Source: Comamonadaceae bacterium (GTDB lineage Bacteria; Pseudomonadota; Gammaproteobacteria; Burkholderiales; Burkholderiaceae_C). Taken from it: a DNA stretch of 33,872 bases. Every line of letters starts with the position of its first letter. Position 1 is the stretch's first letter. The translations under genes were made by a program, and so were the position numbers. A model generated the notes under the pieces. That model saw nothing but the letters and a program-made list of their open reading frames with translations, searched no databases and was not told the origin of the DNA. Shown here in pieces: positions 1,336 through 28,564 of this stretch. Location of the stretch: contig SEAY01000029.1 of NCBI GenBank assembly GCA_004144865.1, positions 1-33,872 on the forward strand, read 5' to 3'.

Positions 1336-1415
1336 TGTCATTGCGGGCTTGACCCGCAATCCATGCTCGGCCCGGACCATCGCCGCGTGGATCCCGGGTC
1401 GAGCCCGGGATGACA
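1336..1415. repeat. Family-2 palindromic intergenic repeat, copy 1
   Basis: Starts TGTCATTGCGGGCTTGACCC and ends with GGATCCCGGGTC, GAGCCCGGGATGACA. The inner right arm CCCGGGTCGAGCCCGGG is itself self-complementary. A second copy with the same ends lies at 24493-24597. The element fills nearly the whole gap between the carboxylase stop and the dehydrogenase start, and its last ATG (1410) opens a false upstream extension of the next gene. Confidence 0.8.
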
Positions 1416-3274: not shown

Positions 3275-3355
3275 CGTCGTCCCCGCGCAGGCGGGGACCC
3301 AGGGCATTGAAGCAAAATGCGGGAGCACTGGGTTCCCGCCTTCGCGGGAACGACG
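3275..3355. repeat. Family-1 palindromic repeat, copy 1
   Basis: Left arm CGTCGTCCCCGCGCAGGCGG continuing to GGACCCAGGGC, spacer of about 24 bases, right arm CTGGGTTCCCGCC to GGGAACGACG. Each arm is a short hairpin and the two arms are inverted copies of one another. Begins right after the HMG-CoA lyase stop and ends 7 bases before the next ATG. Confidence 0.9.
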
Positions 3356-4719: not shown

Positions 4720-4780
4720 CGTCGTTCCCGCGAAGGCGGGGACCCAGGGCGCCCTGGATTCCCGCCTCCGCGGGAATGAC
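4720..4780. repeat. Family-1 palindromic repeat, copy 2
   Basis: Compact copy: CGTCGTTCCCGCGAAGGCGG to GGACCCAGGGC directly abutting GCCCTGGATTCCCGCC to GGGAATGAC, so the two arms form one nearly continuous inverted repeat with almost no spacer. It starts on the base after the isomerase stop and could double as a transcript end. Confidence 0.9.
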
Positions 4781-4975: not shown

Positions 4976-6655
4976 ATGGCAGCAACGCTTCCCGCATCGG
5001 CCGCCCGGCCCATGACCGGCGAGGAAAAGAAGGTGATCTTCGCCTCCTCGCTCGGCACCGTATTCGAGTGGTACGACTTCTACCTCTACGGCTCGCTCGC
5101 GGCGATCATCGCCAAGCAGTTCTTCTCGGCGCTCGATCCCACCTCGGCCTTCATCTTCGCGCTGCTCGCGTTCGCCGCCGGCTTCCTGGTGCGGCCCTTC
5201 GGCGCGATCTTCTTCGGCCGCCTGGGCGACATGATCGGCCGCAAGTACACCTTCCTGGTGACGATCCTGATCATGGGCCTGTCGACCTTCATCGTCGGCA
5301 TCCTGCCCTCGTACGCGACCATCGGCGTCGCGGCGCCGGTGATCCTGATCGGGCTGCGCCTGCTGCAGGGCCTCGCGCTCGGCGGCGAGTACGGCGGTGC
5401 CGCGACCTACGTCGCCGAGCATGCGCCGCACGGCAAGCGCGGCGCGTACACGGCGTGGATCCAGACGACCGCGACGCTGGGCCTGTTCCTGTCGCTGATC
5501 GTCATCCTGGGCGTGCGCACTTCGCTGGGCGAAGCGGCCTTCGCCGAGTGGGGCTGGCGCATTCCCTTCATCGTGTCCATCCTGCTGCTCGGCGTCTCGG
5601 TGTGGATCCGCCTGTCGATGAACGAATCGCCGGCGTTCCAGCGCATGAAGGCCGAGGGCAAGACGTCCAAGGCGCCTCTGAAGGAATCCTTCGGCGAGTG
5701 GAAGAACCTGAAGATCGTGATCCTGGCGCTGCTGGGCCTCACCGCCGGCCAGGCGGTGGTGTGGTACTCGGGCCAGTTCTACGCGCTGTTCTTCCTGACG
5801 CAGGCGCTGAAGGTGGACAATGCCACCGCCAACCTGCTGATCGCCGCCGCGCTGGTGATCGGCACGCCGTTCTTCATCATCTTCGGATCGCTGTCCGACC
5901 GGATCGGCCGCAAGCCCATCATCATGGCGGGCTGCCTGCTGGCCGCGCTCACCTACTTCCCGGTGTTCGGCGCCCTGACCAAGGCCGCCAACCCGGACCT
6001 GGCCGCCGCGCAGGCGCGCAACCAGGTGGTGGTGACGGCGCCGTCGGCGGACTGCTCCTTCCAGGGCAGCCCGATCGCCCGCGAGATCGACTTCCGCAGC
6101 TCGTGCGACATCGCCAAGCGCTTCCTGGCACAGAGCTCGGTGAGCTACGAGAACGCCGTCGGCGCCGCCGGCCAGCCGGCCACGGTGAAGATCGGCGAGA
6201 AGGTGATCACGGCGCCGAGCGCGAACGTGGTGAACCAGAAGTTCGACGAGGCGAGCGCCGCTTCCATCGCGTCCTTCAAGAAGGAAGTGAACGAGGCGCT
6301 GAAGGCGGCCGGCTATCCGGCCAAGGCCGACCCTGCGAAGGTCGACAAGGTGATGGTGACGGTGATCCTGACCTACCTGGTGATCCTGGTGACCATGGTG
6401 TACGGGCCGATCGCCGCGATGCTGGTGGAGATGTTCCCCACGCGCATCCGCTACACCTCCATGAGCCTGCCGTACCACATCGGCAACGGCTGGTTCGGCG
6501 GCTTGCTGCCCACCACCGCCTTCGCCATCGTGGCCGCGACGGGCAACATGTACAACGGCCTCTGGTACCCGATCATCATCGCCGCGATGACGTTCGTGAT
6601 CGGCGTCTTCTTCATCAAGGAGACGAAGGACGTGGACATCTACGCCCGCGACTGA
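4976..6655 (+). CDS. MHS-family major facilitator transporter with a long periplasmic loop
   Basis: 559 residues; inner-membrane proton symporter of the metabolite:H+ symporter type (relatives carry proline/betaine, alpha-ketoglutarate, citrate, shikimate); substrate unknown. Seen: EWYDFYLYG in helix 1, the MFS loop motif GRLGDMIGRKYTF after helix 2 and its repeat GSLSDRIGRKP after helix 8, and twelve hydrophobic segments. Between helices 9 and 10 is a hydrophilic insert of about 120 residues (about 339-458) with two cysteines (DCSF and SSCD), which topology puts in the periplasm. Ordinary family members are 430-450 residues, so the insert explains the extra length. Start ATG 4976 has GGAGA at 4966-4970. 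A terminator follows. Confidence 0.88.
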   Translation: MAATLPASAARPMTGEEKKVIFASSLGTVFEWYDFYLYGSLAAIIAKQFFSALDPTSAFIFALLAFAAGFLVRPFGAIFFGRLGDMIGRKYTFLVTILIMGLSTFIVGILPSYATIGVAAPVILIGLRLLQGLALGGEYGGAATYVAEHAPHGKRGAYTAWIQTTATLGLFLSLIVILGVRTSLGEAAFAEWGWRIPFIVSILLLGVSVWIRLSMNESPAFQRMKAEGKTSKAPLKESFGEWKNLKIVILALLGLTAGQAVVWYSGQFYALFFLTQALKVDNATANLLIAAALVIGTPFFIIFGSLSDRIGRKPIIMAGCLLAALTYFPVFGALTKAANPDLAAAQARNQVVVTAPSADCSFQGSPIAREIDFRSSCDIAKRFLAQSSVSYENAVGAAGQPATVKIGEKVITAPSANVVNQKFDEASAASIASFKKEVNEALKAAGYPAKADPAKVDKVMVTVILTYLVILVTMVYGPIAAMLVEMFPTRIRYTSMSLPYHIGNGWFGGLLPTTAFAIVAATGNMYNGLWYPIIIAAMTFVIGVFFIKETKDVDIYARD

Positions 6656-6932: not shown

Positions 6933-6961
6933 CGTCATTCCCGCGCAGGCGGGTATCCAGG
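6933..6961. repeat. Family-1 left arm, upstream of the GIY-YIG gene
   Basis: CGTCATTCCCGCGCAGGCGG followed by GTATCCAGG: a single arm with no partner nearby on the same side. Its partner arm is the sequence at 7281-7309, on the other side of the GIY-YIG gene. Confidence 0.85.
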
Positions 6962-6983
6962 GCGTCCGCACTACAGTGACCGG

Positions 6984-7307
6984 ATGCGCGAAAGGCAGCC
7001 GGCCGTCTACATCCTCGCGAGCGGGCGCAATGGCACGCTCTATACCGGCGTCACCAGCGACCTGGTGCAGCGTGCCTGGCAGCATCGGGAAGGCGAGGTT
7101 CCGGGATTCACGGAACGCCATGGCGTCAAGCACCTCGTGTACTACGAGATGCACGGCGACATGGAGCATGCGATCGGACGCGAGAAGCGCCTGAAGAAGT
7201 GGAATCGCGCGTGGAAGCTGCGCCTGATCGAGGAGCGCAATCCGCATTGGCGCGATCTCTGGGAGGAGATTCTCGGAAGCCCTGGATTCCCGCGTTCGCG
7301 GGAATGA
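6984..7307 (+). CDS. Single-domain GIY-YIG nuclease
   Basis: 107 residues. GIY-YIG enzymes cut DNA with a Tyr/Arg/Glu active site; small single-domain forms like this (UPF0213/YhbQ-like) have few proven roles. Seen: VYI (Y9) and YTG (Y20-G22) forming the GIY-YIG pair, TSDLVQRAWQH with R30 and H34, and IGREKRLKKW with candidate catalytic Glu E67. The last eight residues, PGFPRSRE (100-107), and the stop codon are encoded by a family-1 palindrome arm, so the natural C-terminus was probably altered or defined by the repeat. Start ATG 6984; the in-frame extension to 6927 is repeat-encoded and rejected. Confidence 0.88.
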   Translation: MRERQPAVYILASGRNGTLYTGVTSDLVQRAWQHREGEVPGFTERHGVKHLVYYEMHGDMEHAIGREKRLKKWNRAWKLRLIEERNPHWRDLWEEILGSPGFPRSRE

Positions 7308-7309
7308 CG
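7281..7309. repeat. Family-1 right arm, overlapping the end of the GIY-YIG gene
   Basis: CCTGGATTCCCGCGTTCGCG then GGAATGACG. It includes the last eight codons and the stop codon (7305-7307) of the nuclease gene. Confidence 0.85.
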
Positions 7310-7315
7310 ATGCAA

Positions 7316-7385
7316 CGTCGTCCCCGCACAAGCGGGGACCCAGGAAGAGCGAACGCTCTGGATTCCCGCCTGCGCGGGAATGACG
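7316..7385. repeat. Family-1 palindromic repeat, second unit of a local cluster
   Basis: Left arm CGTCGTCCCCGCACAAGCGG to GACCCAGG, short spacer GAACGCT, right arm CTGGATTCCCGCCTGCGCGG to GAATGACG. Begins 7 bases after the arm that ends the nuclease gene. Confidence 0.9.
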
Positions 7386-7393
7386 GGGAGCTT

Positions 7394-7459
7394 CGTCGTC
7401 CCCGCGCAGGCGAGGACCCAGGAACGGGCGGTAGCCCTCGATTCCGCCTCGCGGGAAGG
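7394..7459. repeat. Family-1 palindromic repeat, third unit, decayed
   Basis: Left arm CGTCGTCCCCGCGCAGGCGA to GGACCCAGG is nearly intact; the right arm, CTCGATTCCGCCTCGCGGGA, has lost bases. It ends 7 bases before the convergent binding-protein gene. Confidence 0.75.
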
Positions 7460-7465
7460 ACCGGT

Positions 7466-8812: not shown

Positions 8813-11800
8813 ATGTCCCAGGGATCCATCCGCATCCGCGGAGCCAGACAGCACAACCTCAAGAACATCGACCTGGACCTGCACACCGGCGAACTGACGG
8901 TGGTGACGGGCCCCAGTGGATCCGGCAAGTCCAGCCTGGTCTTCGACACGCTCTATGCCGAGGGGCAGCGGCGCTACGTCGAAACGTTCTCCGCCTATGC
9001 GCGCCAGTTCCTGGAGCGCATGGACAAGCCCGCCGTCGACCGCGTGGAGGGCGTGCCGCCCGCCATCGCGATCGACCAGACCAACCCGGTGCGTTCCTCG
9101 CGCTCCACCGTCGGCACGATGACGGAGCTGAACGACCACCTGAAGCTGCTGTTCGCGCGCGCCGCGCAGCTGTTCGACCGCAAGACGGCCCTGCAGGTGC
9201 GGCACGACTCGCCGGAGACGATCTACGAGCAGCTGATGGAGCGCACGAAGGCGGGCGATCCGCGGCTGGTCGTGACATTCCCGGTGGAGCTGCCCGGCGG
9301 CACCACGCCGGAGGAAGTGGAGCAGTGGCTCGCCGCCAGTGGCTTCACCCGCGTGCAGGCGGAGCGCGAAGTCTCCACGGTGACCGGCCCGCGCAAGGTG
9401 CTGGACGTGGTGGCCGACCGCTTCCGCATCCAGGGCGTGGAGAAGGCGCGTGCGATCGAGGCGATCGAGGTGGCGCTCAAGCGGGGGAGCGGACGGCTGT
9501 CGGTGTACGTGACGGGCGAAGCCCGTCATCCCCGCGCAGGCGGGGACCCAGAGGACGCGCGCAGCGCGTCGAATGCGGACGCCCTGGATCCCCGCCTTCG
9601 CGGGGATGACGAGGTGTGGAAATTCTCCACCGGCCTGCATTGCCCCGACAGCGACATCCGCTACGGCGACCCCGTGCCGTCCATGTTCTCGTTCAACTCG
9701 CCGGTCGGCGCGTGCGAGACCTGTCGTGGCTTCGGCCGCGTGATCGGCGTGGATTACGGCCTGGTGATCCCGAACGACAAGCTCACGCTGCGCGCCGGCG
9801 CCGTCAAGACCTTCCAGACGCCGGCCTGGTCCGAGTCGCAGGACGACATGATGCGGCACGCCGAGTCCGCCGGCATCCCGCGCGACACGCCCTGGTACAA
9901 GCTCACGCCGGAGCAGAAGAACTGGGTGATCCACGGCGCGCCCAACTACCGCGACGGCAACTGGAACCGCCAGTGGTACGGCGTGAAGCGCTTCTTCGAG
10001 TACCTGGAGAGCAAGTCGTACAAGATGCACATCCGCGTGCTGCTGTCCAAGTACCGCAGCTACACGCCGTGCGAGGCCTGCGGGGGCGCGCGCCTGAAGA
10101 CCGAGTCGCTGCTGTGGCGCCTGGGCAGCAAGGCGGACGCGGACGCGGTGCTCGAGCCGGCGAAGCGCTTCCTGCCGGTCGGCGTCGACTGGTCGCGCGG
10201 GCAGCTGGAAGCGCTGCCGGGCCTGACCCTGCACGACCTGATGCTGCTCCCCATCGACAAGCTGCGGCGTTTCTTCGCGCAGGTGGAGCCCGAGGCCGAG
10301 GCGCATGCCGGCGGCGGCGAGCTGCAGGCGCTGAAGCTGCTGTTCGAGGAGATCAACACGCGCTTGCGCTACCTGGTCGACGTGGGCATCGGCTACCTGA
10401 CGCTGGACCGCCAGAGCCGCACGCTGTCGGGCGGCGAAGTGCAGCGCATCAACCTGACCACGGCGCTGGGCACCTCGCTGGTGAACACGCTGTTCGTGCT
10501 GGACGAGCCGAGCATCGGCCTGCACCCGCGCGACATGGGCCGCATCACGCAGGCCATGCATCGGCTGCGCGACGCCGGCAACACGCTGGTGGTGGTGGAG
10601 CACGACCCCGCGGTGATGGTCGCCGCCGACCGCATCATCGACATGGGGCCGGGCCCCGGCGAACGCGGCGGGCAGATCGTGTTCGACGGCACCGTGAACG
10701 ACCTGCGCAGCGCCGACACCCTGACCGGCGCCTACCTGGGCGCGCGCAAGCACGTCGGCATGGGCTTCAAGCGGGCGGTGACCGACGCAACGCCGCGCCT
10801 GGTGCTGGAAGGGGCGCGCGAGCACAACCTGCAGGACCTGCAGGTGGAGTTCCCGCTGCAGCGCATGGTGGTCGTGACGGGCGTGTCGGGCTCGGGCAAG
10901 TCCACGCTGGTGCAGGACATCCTGGCGCCGGCCCTGCTGCGCCACTTCGGCCGCGCGACGGAGACGCCCGGCGCGCACGACCGCGTGCTCGGCGCCGACC
11001 ACCTGGGCGACGTGGTGTTCGTGGACCAGTCGCCCATCGGCAAGACGGCCCGTTCCAACCCGGTGAGCTATGTGGGCGCGTGGGACTCCATCCGCGAGAT
11101 CTTCGCCAATGCGCCGGTCTCGAAGCAGCGCGGCTACACCGCGTCCAAGTTCAGCTTCAACTCGGGCGACGGCCGCTGCCCCACTTGCGGCGGCTCGGGC
11201 TACGAGCACGTGGAGATGCAGTTCCTCTCCGACGTGTACCTGCGCTGCCCGGACTGCGACGGCAAGCGGTACCGGCCCGAGATCCTCGAGATCACCATCG
11301 AGCGCCAGCCGGTGGGCGCGCTGCAGCCGCGCAAGCTCAACGTGGCGGACGTGCTGGAGCTCACCGTCAGCGAAGCCGCCTCGCTGTTCGCGAACGACCG
11401 CGACGTGATCCGCTCGCTGCAGCCCATCGTCGACGTGGGCCTGGAGTACGTGAAGCTGGGCCAGCCGGTGCCCACGCTCTCCGGCGGCGAATCGCAGCGC
11501 CTGAAGCTCGCCGGCTTCCTGGCAGAGGCGGCGCGCTCGCCGAGCCACAGCCGGCAGGGGCTCGCGAAGAAGGGCACGCTGTTCCTGTTCGACGAGCCCA
11601 CCACGGGCCTGCACTTCGACGACATCGCCAAGCTGATGCGCGCCTTGCGCAAGCTGCTGGAAGGTGGCAACTCCCTCATCGTGATCGAGCACAACCTCGA
11701 CGTGATCCGGGCGGCCGACTGGCTGGTGGACCTGGGCCCGGAAGGAGGCGACGGCGGCGGTCTGGTGGTGGCGGAAGGGCCGCCGGAGGAAGTGAAGCTG

Positions 11801-14755: not shown

Positions 14756-14837
14756 CGTCATTCCCGCGGAGGCGGGAATCCAGAGCTTCCGCTCCCGTGT
14801 TTCAATGCCCTGGGTCCCCGCCTCCGCGGGGACGACG
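14756..14837. repeat. Family-1 palindromic repeat after uvrA, inverted orientation
   Basis: Left arm CGTCATTCCCGCGGAGGCGG to GAATCCAG, right arm CTGGGTCCCCGCCTCCGCGG to GGACGACG. The order of the ATTCCC and GTCCCC arms is opposite to most copies, so this copy sits in reverse; its spacer, read in reverse, resembles that of the copy at 3275. Confidence 0.9.
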
Positions 14838-23848: not shown

Positions 23849-23917
23849 GTCGTCCCCGCGGAGGCGGGGACCCAGGGCATTCGGAAGCCCTGGATTCCCG
23901 CCTGCGCGGGAATGACG
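23849..23917. repeat. Family-1 palindromic repeat between polymerase and tag genes
   Basis: CGTCGTCCCCGCGGAGGCGG to GGACCCAGGGC, spacer ATTCGGAAGC, then CCTGGATTCCCGCCTGCGCG to GGAATGACG. Starts six bases after the polymerase stop and ends 19 bases before the tag start. Confidence 0.9.
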
Positions 23918-24509: not shown

Positions 24510-24597
24510 CCCCGGATCAAGTCCGGGGCAGGCTCCGCAATCCACGACGAGGCCCGATCAAGCGCCGCATGGATCCCGGGTCAAGCCCGGGATGACA
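24493..24597. repeat. Family-2 palindromic repeat, copy 2, overlapping the end of tag
   Basis: Starts TGTCATTGCGGGCTTGACCC, has an inner palindrome CCCCGGATCAAGTCCGGGG, and ends GGATCCCGGGTCAAGCCCGG then GATGACA. Same ends as 1336-1415 but about 25 bases longer. It supplies the stop codon of tag and fills the gap to the convergent ligase gene. Confidence 0.85.
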
Positions 24598-26906: not shown

Positions 26907-26913
26907 CGCGCCA

Positions 26914-26976
26914 ACCGAGGAGCGTTGCAGCGTCCGCAATGGACGCGAGGCTCGGAACCACGCAACGACGCTCACC
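26914..26976 (+). ncRNA. SAH riboswitch upstream of ahcY
   Basis: Matches the known S-adenosylhomocysteine riboswitch layout: CCGAG (26915-26919) pairs with CTCGG (26951-26955); GCGTCC (26930-26935) and GGACGC (26941-26946) close an inner hairpin; GAGCG (26920-26924) pairs with CGCTC (26969-26973) and TTGC with GCAA (26962-26965), forming the pseudoknot. The conserved GAGGAGCGTTGC and ACGCAACGACGCTCACCC strings are present. SAH binding is known to switch on ahcY in related bacteria. The GCTCACC at the 3' edge (26970-26976) can instead pair with GGTGAGC at 26991-26997, a likely switching stem. Confidence 0.9.
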
Positions 26977-27049
26977 CACCCTTCGCGTGCGGTGAGCTCC
27001 CCCGTTCCCCCGAGAAGAGTGGCTGACCAACCCTGCCTTTGGAGCCACC

Positions 27050-28488: not shown

Positions 28489-28564
28489 CGTCGTCCCCGC
28501 GTAGGCGGGGACCCAGGGCGCCCGAATGCGGAAGCCCTGGATTCCCGCCTCCGCGGGAATGACG
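28489..28564. repeat. Family-1 palindromic repeat between ahcY and tlyA
   Basis: CGTCGTCCCCGCGTAGGCGG to GGACCCAGGGC, spacer GCCCGAATGCGGAAGC, right arm CCTGGATTCCCGCCTCCGCG to GGAATGACG. Starts two bases after the ahcY stop. Confidence 0.9.

Follow-up and report, generated by a model that had tools for sequence, protein, structure and literature searches.

A small GIY-YIG nuclease gene between inverted CGTC-tagged REPs: a candidate mobile unit, and a candidate enzyme for the spread of a common bacterial repeat class

The window considered here (the whole stretch of DNA that was analysed, 33,872 nucleotides from a Comamonadaceae bacterium) carries a gene for a small GIY-YIG nuclease that is enclosed by two inverted copies of a palindromic repeat (Table 1). 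The first-pass annotation had described this arrangement, including a right arm that supplies the final codons of the gene, and its coordinates for gene and arms are confirmed; the stop codon, a TGA, indeed lies inside the right arm. Both arms are contained in a 36-nt inverted repeat, the halves of which (6933-6968 and 7274-7309) are 89% complementary.

Table 1. Coordinates of the gene-bearing unit and of related repeats in the window.
Feature	Position	Strand	Basis or remark
Left arm: CGTC-tagged REP (29 nt) with inner tail	6933..6968	+	Tag outward; short hairpin by folding
29-nt palindrome of left arm	6933-6961	+	
GIY-YIG nuclease gene, 107 aa	6984..7307	+	PF01541, E 1.2e-13; final codons and stop within right arm
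Right arm: CGTC-tagged REP with inner tail CGGAAGC	7274..7309	-	Tag outward; hairpin by folding
29-nt palindrome of right arm	7281-7309	-	
Gene-less REP dimer, tags outward	7316..7385		Beats 200 shuffles in folding, z -5.4
Gene-less REP dimer, partly decayed (right arm with 4 mismatches)	about 7394..7461		Arm scan
Gene-less REP dimer, family of 6933-7309 arms	3276..3354		Arm scan
Gene-less REP dimer, family of 6933-7309 arms	4721..4780		Arm scan
Gene-less REP dimer, in-frame insert in uvrA-like gene (name by sight from sequence)	9522..9611		Relatives aligned
Gene-less REP dimer directly after uvrA-like gene	14757..14836		Arm scan
Gene-less REP dimer, inner tail CGGAAGCCCT in spacer	23849..23916		Arm scan, folding
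Gene-less REP dimer, spacer end = GCGGAAGCCCT	28490..28563		Arm scan
Single REP resembling ATCCCGGG-stem arm beside second paralogue (type B)	1389..1414	-	Motif also right of second GIY-YIG gene in L002
Single REP resembling ATCCCGGG-stem arm beside second paralogue (type B)	24571..24596	-	Arm scan

Repeats of the same family recur along the window. An arm scan of its whole length, with a limit of four mismatches, returned 26 matches, 17 with 0-1 mismatches and nine at the four-mismatch limit, at which ten Markov sequences used as a control gave 4.7 matches on average. Sixteen of the 17 good matches pair, either as head-to-head dimers or as the gene-bearing unit, and the 17th (at 7395) is the left arm of a dimer with a decayed right arm; of the two further copies that had been said to follow the gene directly, the nearer is clear and the farther only partly preserved. 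The bases just inside the right arm, TCGGAAGC, had likewise been matched to gene-less copies, and this match is real at 23849 and 28490, where it corresponds to an inner tail of the REP; the tail is common but not universal, in that among 26 gene-less dimers from the window and the genus loci an exact GCTTCC stands in the first 12 spacer bases of eight, an exact GGAAGC in the last 12 of nine, and at least one of the two in 14. As the gene-bearing arms and some gene-less dimers share this tail, the gene occupies the place of a dimer's spacer. Elsewhere in the window, an SAH riboswitch (RF01057, 57 bits) lies at 26911-26980 on the forward strand.

The arms fit a repeat class that has been described before. 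CGTC-tagged REPs, as defined by Di Nocera et al. (2013, PMC3733652), have a CGTC or TGTC tag, an 8-9 bp stem mostly starting with AT, a 4-5 nt loop and a CCA tail, and form head-to-head dimers; according to that paper they occur in species of five phyla, with Neisseria dRS3 as a member, and the agent of their spread is left open, no dedicated transposase being reported and the main text containing no instance of 'giy'. The window arms (CGTCATTCCCGCG-loop-CGGGAATCCA) show the tag, stem, loop and tail of this definition, the window's genome (G000) holds a high copy number of such elements (111 exact matches to the CGTC-1 pattern), and close REP neighbours in the window and the genus loci are mostly head-to-head (26 HH, 13 TT and 4 HT). 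A literature search, with preprints outside its scope, revealed no link between GIY-YIG proteins and REPs in the titles or abstract beginnings of the matches listed, and earlier notice elsewhere is possible.

Pfam recognises only PF01541 in the 107-residue protein, over residues 7-79. An AlphaFold2 model (mean pLDDT 88.5) has its nearest solved folds, as judged by Foldseek, in UPF0213 (1zg2), Slx1 and the UvrC N-domain; these similarities are modest (E 2e-3 and weaker), with the UPF0213 protein 1zg2 being the best match by both structure and sequence. Tyr9, Tyr20, Arg30 and Glu67 are invariant across 37 aligned rows, and we take these, from I-TevI and UvrC, to be the catalytic positions. Prokaryotic Slx1-like proteins are listed in PMC1564403 as being without the C-terminal Asn, and for Asn86 of the window's protein we assert no role. 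With a median dN/dS of 0.21 for type A (the window's paralogue; 21 pairs) and 0.18 for type B (six pairs from four genes, a fifth with a stop in the range having been dropped), the protein is maintained by purifying selection. No match was found to a known defence gene or an NCBIfam family, and GenBank phages yielded just two weak matches, so that phages as carriers are without support there.

Inverted flanks are a general property of genes of this kind. In a blind test, the left flank of each gene was compared with the reverse complement of its right flank, shifted positions in the same loci serving as the control. When 185 genomes of the class were searched at the protein level, 40 of them yielded 57 matches in total, and every one of these loci was taken; 40 of the 55 testable genes scored above the 99th percentile of 771 controls (15 fell below), 38 exceeded the control maximum, and at least one gene passed in 32 of the 39 testable genomes, nearly all of different families. 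Within the phylum, a profile search of 299 genomes found a match in 80, and the best 82 by score of roughly 150 matches were taken: 49 of the 68 nearer genes and 12 of the 14 weaker ones lay above the 99th percentile of 671 controls (19 and two below), with 11 and four, respectively, above a control maximum that is high because some control positions fall on other repeats. A scan of GTDB species genomes, from which the best 80 of at least 542 relatives were kept, extended the set to 13 phyla as labelled in the records (Pseudomonadota 57, Planctomycetota 5, Chloroflexota 3, Hydrogenedentota 3, and nine others), some of which may be binning errors since many of these relatives are metagenome-assembled; here 60 of 80 exceeded the 99th percentile of 792 controls and 20 did not. 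Some of the genes below the percentile have one arm, or displaced arms, and at L213, an apparent exception, both arms have been forced apart by another repeat.

At one fixed threshold, and with the 14 weaker loci and a few gene fragments counted in, 178 of 239 loci have an inverted flanking repeat; the same is true of 19 of the 982 other ORFs that were called mechanically, at 150 aa or more, within these loci. The remaining 61 of the 239 are without clear inverted flanks. A strict CGTC-hairpin definition places hairpins on both sides in 120 of the 239 loci, compared with five of 2949 shifted positions, four loci near contig ends being excluded from both the flank count and the hairpin count. 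The expectation that homologues would carry flanking arms far above chance is thus borne out, with shared descent not fully removed from the wider-set tests, and the stems of the flanking repeats differ between lineages. In the 120 loci the nearest hairpins have their tags outward in 77, inward in 24 and in the same direction in 19; at the tags-inward loci, Azospirillum among them, the gene lies between dimers and not inside one. For a copy on a Rhizobium plasmid (L294), just one of the two flanks carries a REP. At three loci (L037, L038 and L039) the draft contigs stop no more than about 210 bases from the gene, which fits the tendency of repeats to break assemblies.

Chance was rejected as the source of the inverted flanks on the strength of the shifted positions, the other ORFs and a reversed pattern. 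So was the idea that such flanks are a trait of any small GIY-YIG gene: none of eight YhbQ/UPF0213-like genes, typed by sight and drawn from REP-rich genomes without the subject gene, was flanked, their best flank score being 13.5 against a control 99th percentile of 15 (101 positions). One UvrC gene was also tested and had no inverted flanking repeats. A divergent GIY-YIG subfamily within the phylum (L154-L166) has inverted flanks of other repeat families (CCTCATCCTGAGG..., GTTCGCCCTGAGCTTGTCGAAGGGC...) in 12 of 13 cases, and L167, with a similar score, has none.

The window's genome holds a second GIY-YIG gene (contig C72) that has another REP, GTCATTGCGGGCTTGACCCGCAATCCA and its relatives, on its flanks. 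Within the genus, 14 of 60 genomes have a match to the gene (in the class, 40 of 185). With types assigned by protein identity and the fragments L122-L124 excluded, only A-type palindromes lie within 220 bp of paralogue A in eight of eight loci (in L110 on the downstream side only, by the strict pattern), and only B-type palindromes within 220 bp of paralogue B in seven of seven (Fisher p 1.6e-4 if the loci are independent); a third gene, L115, at 60% identity, has neither but another stem. At L123 (about 4977-5152, G200:C39) a C-terminal gene fragment abuts a type B REP that is followed by another palindrome, and looks like an internally deleted unit.

Copy number follows the same pairing. 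REP-A has a median of 66 in the eight genomes with gene A versus 0 in the 52 others (p 7e-5), and REP-B a median of 27 in the seven with gene B versus 0 in 51 others (p 5e-5), two genomes with B fragments only being excluded (26 versus 0 on their inclusion). Genomes with A only have 0, 0, 0, 0 and 29 copies of REP-B, those with B only, fragments included, 0, 0, 1, 3, 8 and 17 of REP-A, and both families occur together in G000, G231, G239 and G193. Across the 60 genomes this is a double dissociation, in which the copy number of each REP family tracks its own paralogue and not the other; G246, with gene A, has no REP-A because its arms carry another stem. In the class, the REP pattern is present in 27 of 40 genomes with the gene and 28 of 145 without it (odds ratio 8.7, p 1.8e-8). 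The link between gene and copy number that had been suggested at the outset holds for the medians of the genus but is not strict: eight of the 145 gene-less class genomes have at least ten copies, as do, for REP-A and REP-B respectively, five and nine of the 46 genus genomes with neither gene, one gene-less genus genome having 114 REP-B. The gene tree needs 42 changes of stem label, and 300 shuffles never gave fewer than 49 (22 against 27 without the named set; 18 against 19 for class, phylum and plasmid loci alone); relatedness can yield such clustering, and we rely instead on the within-genus paralogue test.

The genes change position. Judged by the flanks available, the eight type A loci occupy seven distinct places, the window and L110 sharing one and L113 and L114 having a single shared 67% match, on opposite sides; the seven type B loci are all in distinct places (with one upstream flank missing). 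A gene at the same syntenic place without any repeat, which would have told against the first-pass annotation, was not seen: at L110, the sole orthologous site found, a left arm persists in decayed form and REPs lie about 130-300 bp downstream. In G207 the genes that flank the unit in the window are present, but both the nuclease gene and the REPs are missing from the gap between them; the equivalent gaps of G200, G198 and G192 are free of REPs too, those of G198 and G192 holding other sequence. A comparable case is found in Azospirillum lipoferum, where the gene sits between two REP dimers in a sufB-sufC gap of 617 bp; this gap is without gene or REP in A. ramasamyi, A. oryzae, A. sp. B510, A. 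argentinense and A. thermophilum, with the four annotated empty gaps measuring 55-129 bp, and in Shinella PSBB067 it holds a unit with another REP. The same gap has a DUF559 gene in Sphingomonas parapaucimobilis (L301 1018-1428). Such empty sites may reflect either gain or loss of the unit.

Evidence that bears on movement in trans comes from G027, in which three units, 99% identical and with an N-terminally deleted gene, lie in three places, as would be expected of units mobilised by a protein supplied from elsewhere. Gene-less dimers appear, from alignment, to move too: at the site in the uvrA-like gene (9522-9611), one of 23 aligned relatives has such a REP dimer, 15 have no insert and seven have other inserts, one of the seven (L330, from a genome with gene B) being a type-B-like dimer. 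This one loop (window, L323-L330) holds an A-type dimer, a B-type-like dimer, a GGGGTCAGACCCC-type repeat and further inserts in different relatives, which gives it the look of a site that tolerates insertion. The uvrA, suf and Pseudomonas comparisons revealed neither a target-site duplication nor an exact junction. The repeated unit of G027 has sharp ends and extends beyond the REPs, with no duplication established, and that of G095 is larger than the REP-bounded unit. The G095 units (L064, L065 and L072) lie inside longer inverted ends (GGCGTTGTTGAATAAATAACC in L065), which to our eye resemble the end of an IS5-family element; given the larger repeated units in both genomes and the IS-like ends in G095, another transposase may have moved those.

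Synthesising these observations, we give a probability of about two in three to the reading that positions 6933-7309 are a mobile unit, made up of inverted CGTC-tagged REPs around a small GIY-YIG nuclease gene, with the nuclease dedicated to that REP family and acting on its palindromes. A RAYT-like part for the nuclease, as first suggested from the window alone, has gained support from the flank, copy-number and synteny comparisons, and the unit may well be the 'autonomous parent' of the repeat family. We envisage that the protein would recognise the folded palindrome of its own REP, either as a single strand or as a cruciform, and nick near the CGTC tag at both inverted arms; this would start movement of the gene-bearing unit or, far more often, of short gene-less dimers in trans, the latter representing non-autonomous copies. 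GIY-YIG enzymes are hydrolases that are not known to form a covalent link to DNA, and for this reason the host would have to rejoin the ends by ligase or repair, in contrast to what RAYTs do by their HUH mechanism. Cleavage and transposition by the GIY-YIG nuclease are what we infer from comparison of sequences, and most likely both units and gene-less dimers would begin to transpose after nicking that is directed by the hairpin.

The main rival to this reading, which we nonetheless consider unlikely, is homing, whereby the nuclease would cut gene-less REP dimers at other places, either in its own genome or following transfer, and the gene would be copied into them by recombination across the arms they share, the REPs themselves spreading by some other route. 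GIY-YIG is described as a classic homing-endonuclease fold (PMC1564403), the gene replaces the dimer spacer in 77 of 120 loci, the window gene is joined by an inner tail of the gene-less dimer kind, and the tags-inward loci resemble a gene placed between dimers. Against this, REPs are absent from the empty sites, both those of the five Azospirillum species and those of G207, G200, G198 and G192, such that under homing the target REP must have come first and left no trace in relatives; nor does homing alone explain why REP copy number tracks the matching paralogue. We regard it as very improbable that the REPs are moved by a RAYT, an IS or a phage integrase with the GIY-YIG gene simply carried along, REP-rich gaps tolerating insertions. 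A Y1 transposase match in the genome, the G095 unit within longer repeats with IS-like ends, and Neisseria dRS3, a member of the same REP class that is known as a phage insertion site, can be cited for such carriage, but the Y1 gene sits in terminal repeats of its own (GGGGTCAGA type) with no CGTC arm within 3.3 kb beyond one chance-level match, flanks are seen at just 19 of 982 other ORFs and none of eight other small GIY-YIG genes, and paralogue-specific stems would not be expected.

A RAYT as the mover of the CGTC REPs was rejected, the sole Y1 match in G000 (a draft, 93% complete) lying in GGGGTCAGA-type terminal repeats without CGTC arms. That match (L005, G000:C160:13727-14023) is within inverted GGGGTCAGATTCCAATTA repeats, like the TIRYT genes described in PMC3733652. 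Least probable of all, to our mind, is a host function, in which the protein would be a repair or structure-specific nuclease of Slx1/UvrC kind and the REPs would merely regulate or terminate its transcript: the nearest solved folds (UPF0213, Slx1 and UvrC), the stop codon supplied by the right arm, and three small COG2827 genes of Caulobacter that PMC1839093 discusses in terms of repair, one of them having an SOS box, all lend it something, yet patchy presence (14 of 60 genus and 40 of 185 class genomes), changing positions and close relatives in 13 phyla by label are unlike a housekeeping gene, and REP copy number would not be expected to track a paralogue.

Returning to the unit as a mobile element with its own dedicated nuclease, its closest parallel is the RAYT-REP system (REPtron/REPIN, GTAG-tagged), which likewise places its nuclease gene within a pair of inverted palindromic REPs, has numerous short dimers without the gene at other sites and has repeat-specific enzymes; there, too, REPs without a matching enzyme gene occur (PMC3733652). 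RAYTs are Y1/HUH transposases and their REPs have a GTAG tag, whereas here we find a GIY-YIG fold and a CGTC tag, and as these two defining features differ we do not class the system as RAYT-REP. Its arms fit the CGTC-tagged REPs, the class that includes dRS3, for which the account in PMC3733652 gives no dedicated transposase. With GIY-YIG homing endonucleases of I-TevI type it has in common the catalytic fold and selfish spread, but the protein is single-domain, no intron or intein is seen and the flanks are multi-copy REPs. NUMOD modules are associated with such endonucleases (PMC1564403) and NUMOD-type C-terminal modules were not found here by Pfam, although free-standing homing forms without DNA-binding modules exist, so that this absence alone does not exclude homing. 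The small YhbQ/UPF0213 proteins are similar in size and fold but, in the eight genes typed by sight, lack the inverted flanks. MITEs and their parent IS provide a further analogy, in that short non-autonomous copies share the ends of a gene-bearing copy, and partly deleted gene copies exist here as well; the ends here are, however, self-complementary hairpins, no target-site duplication was found, and there is no known transposase.

We know of no homologous system in the role of mobilising REPs, and it is because none is known or was found that we call the GIY-YIG/REP system new. We hold at even odds the broader proposal that it represents an undescribed class of mobile element, in which a GIY-YIG hydrolase, and not an HUH, DDE or serine/tyrosine enzyme, would act as the dedicated mobilising nuclease through recognition of its own palindrome hairpin, and would have generated CGTC REPs, Neisseria dRS3 among them, across many phyla; further repeat families would be brought in by the related subfamily, with its CCTCATCCTGAGG..CGAAGGAYGAGG or GTTCGCCCTGAGCTTGTCGAAGGGC repeats. 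A more cautious name may be a 'non-homologous counterpart of the REPtron'.

Judged from these comparisons, there is a good case for the GIY-YIG nuclease as a candidate for the enzyme that has been missing from accounts of how this common bacterial repeat class spreads. As nuclease clades match repeats, the spread of CGTC REPs becomes testable with one protein and one oligonucleotide. If the proposal is true, elements of REP type have at least two origins, with enzymes unrelated to each other; the many genes annotated merely as 'GIY-YIG nuclease family protein' would gain a function, and the protein would possibly offer a new hairpin-directed DNA tool.
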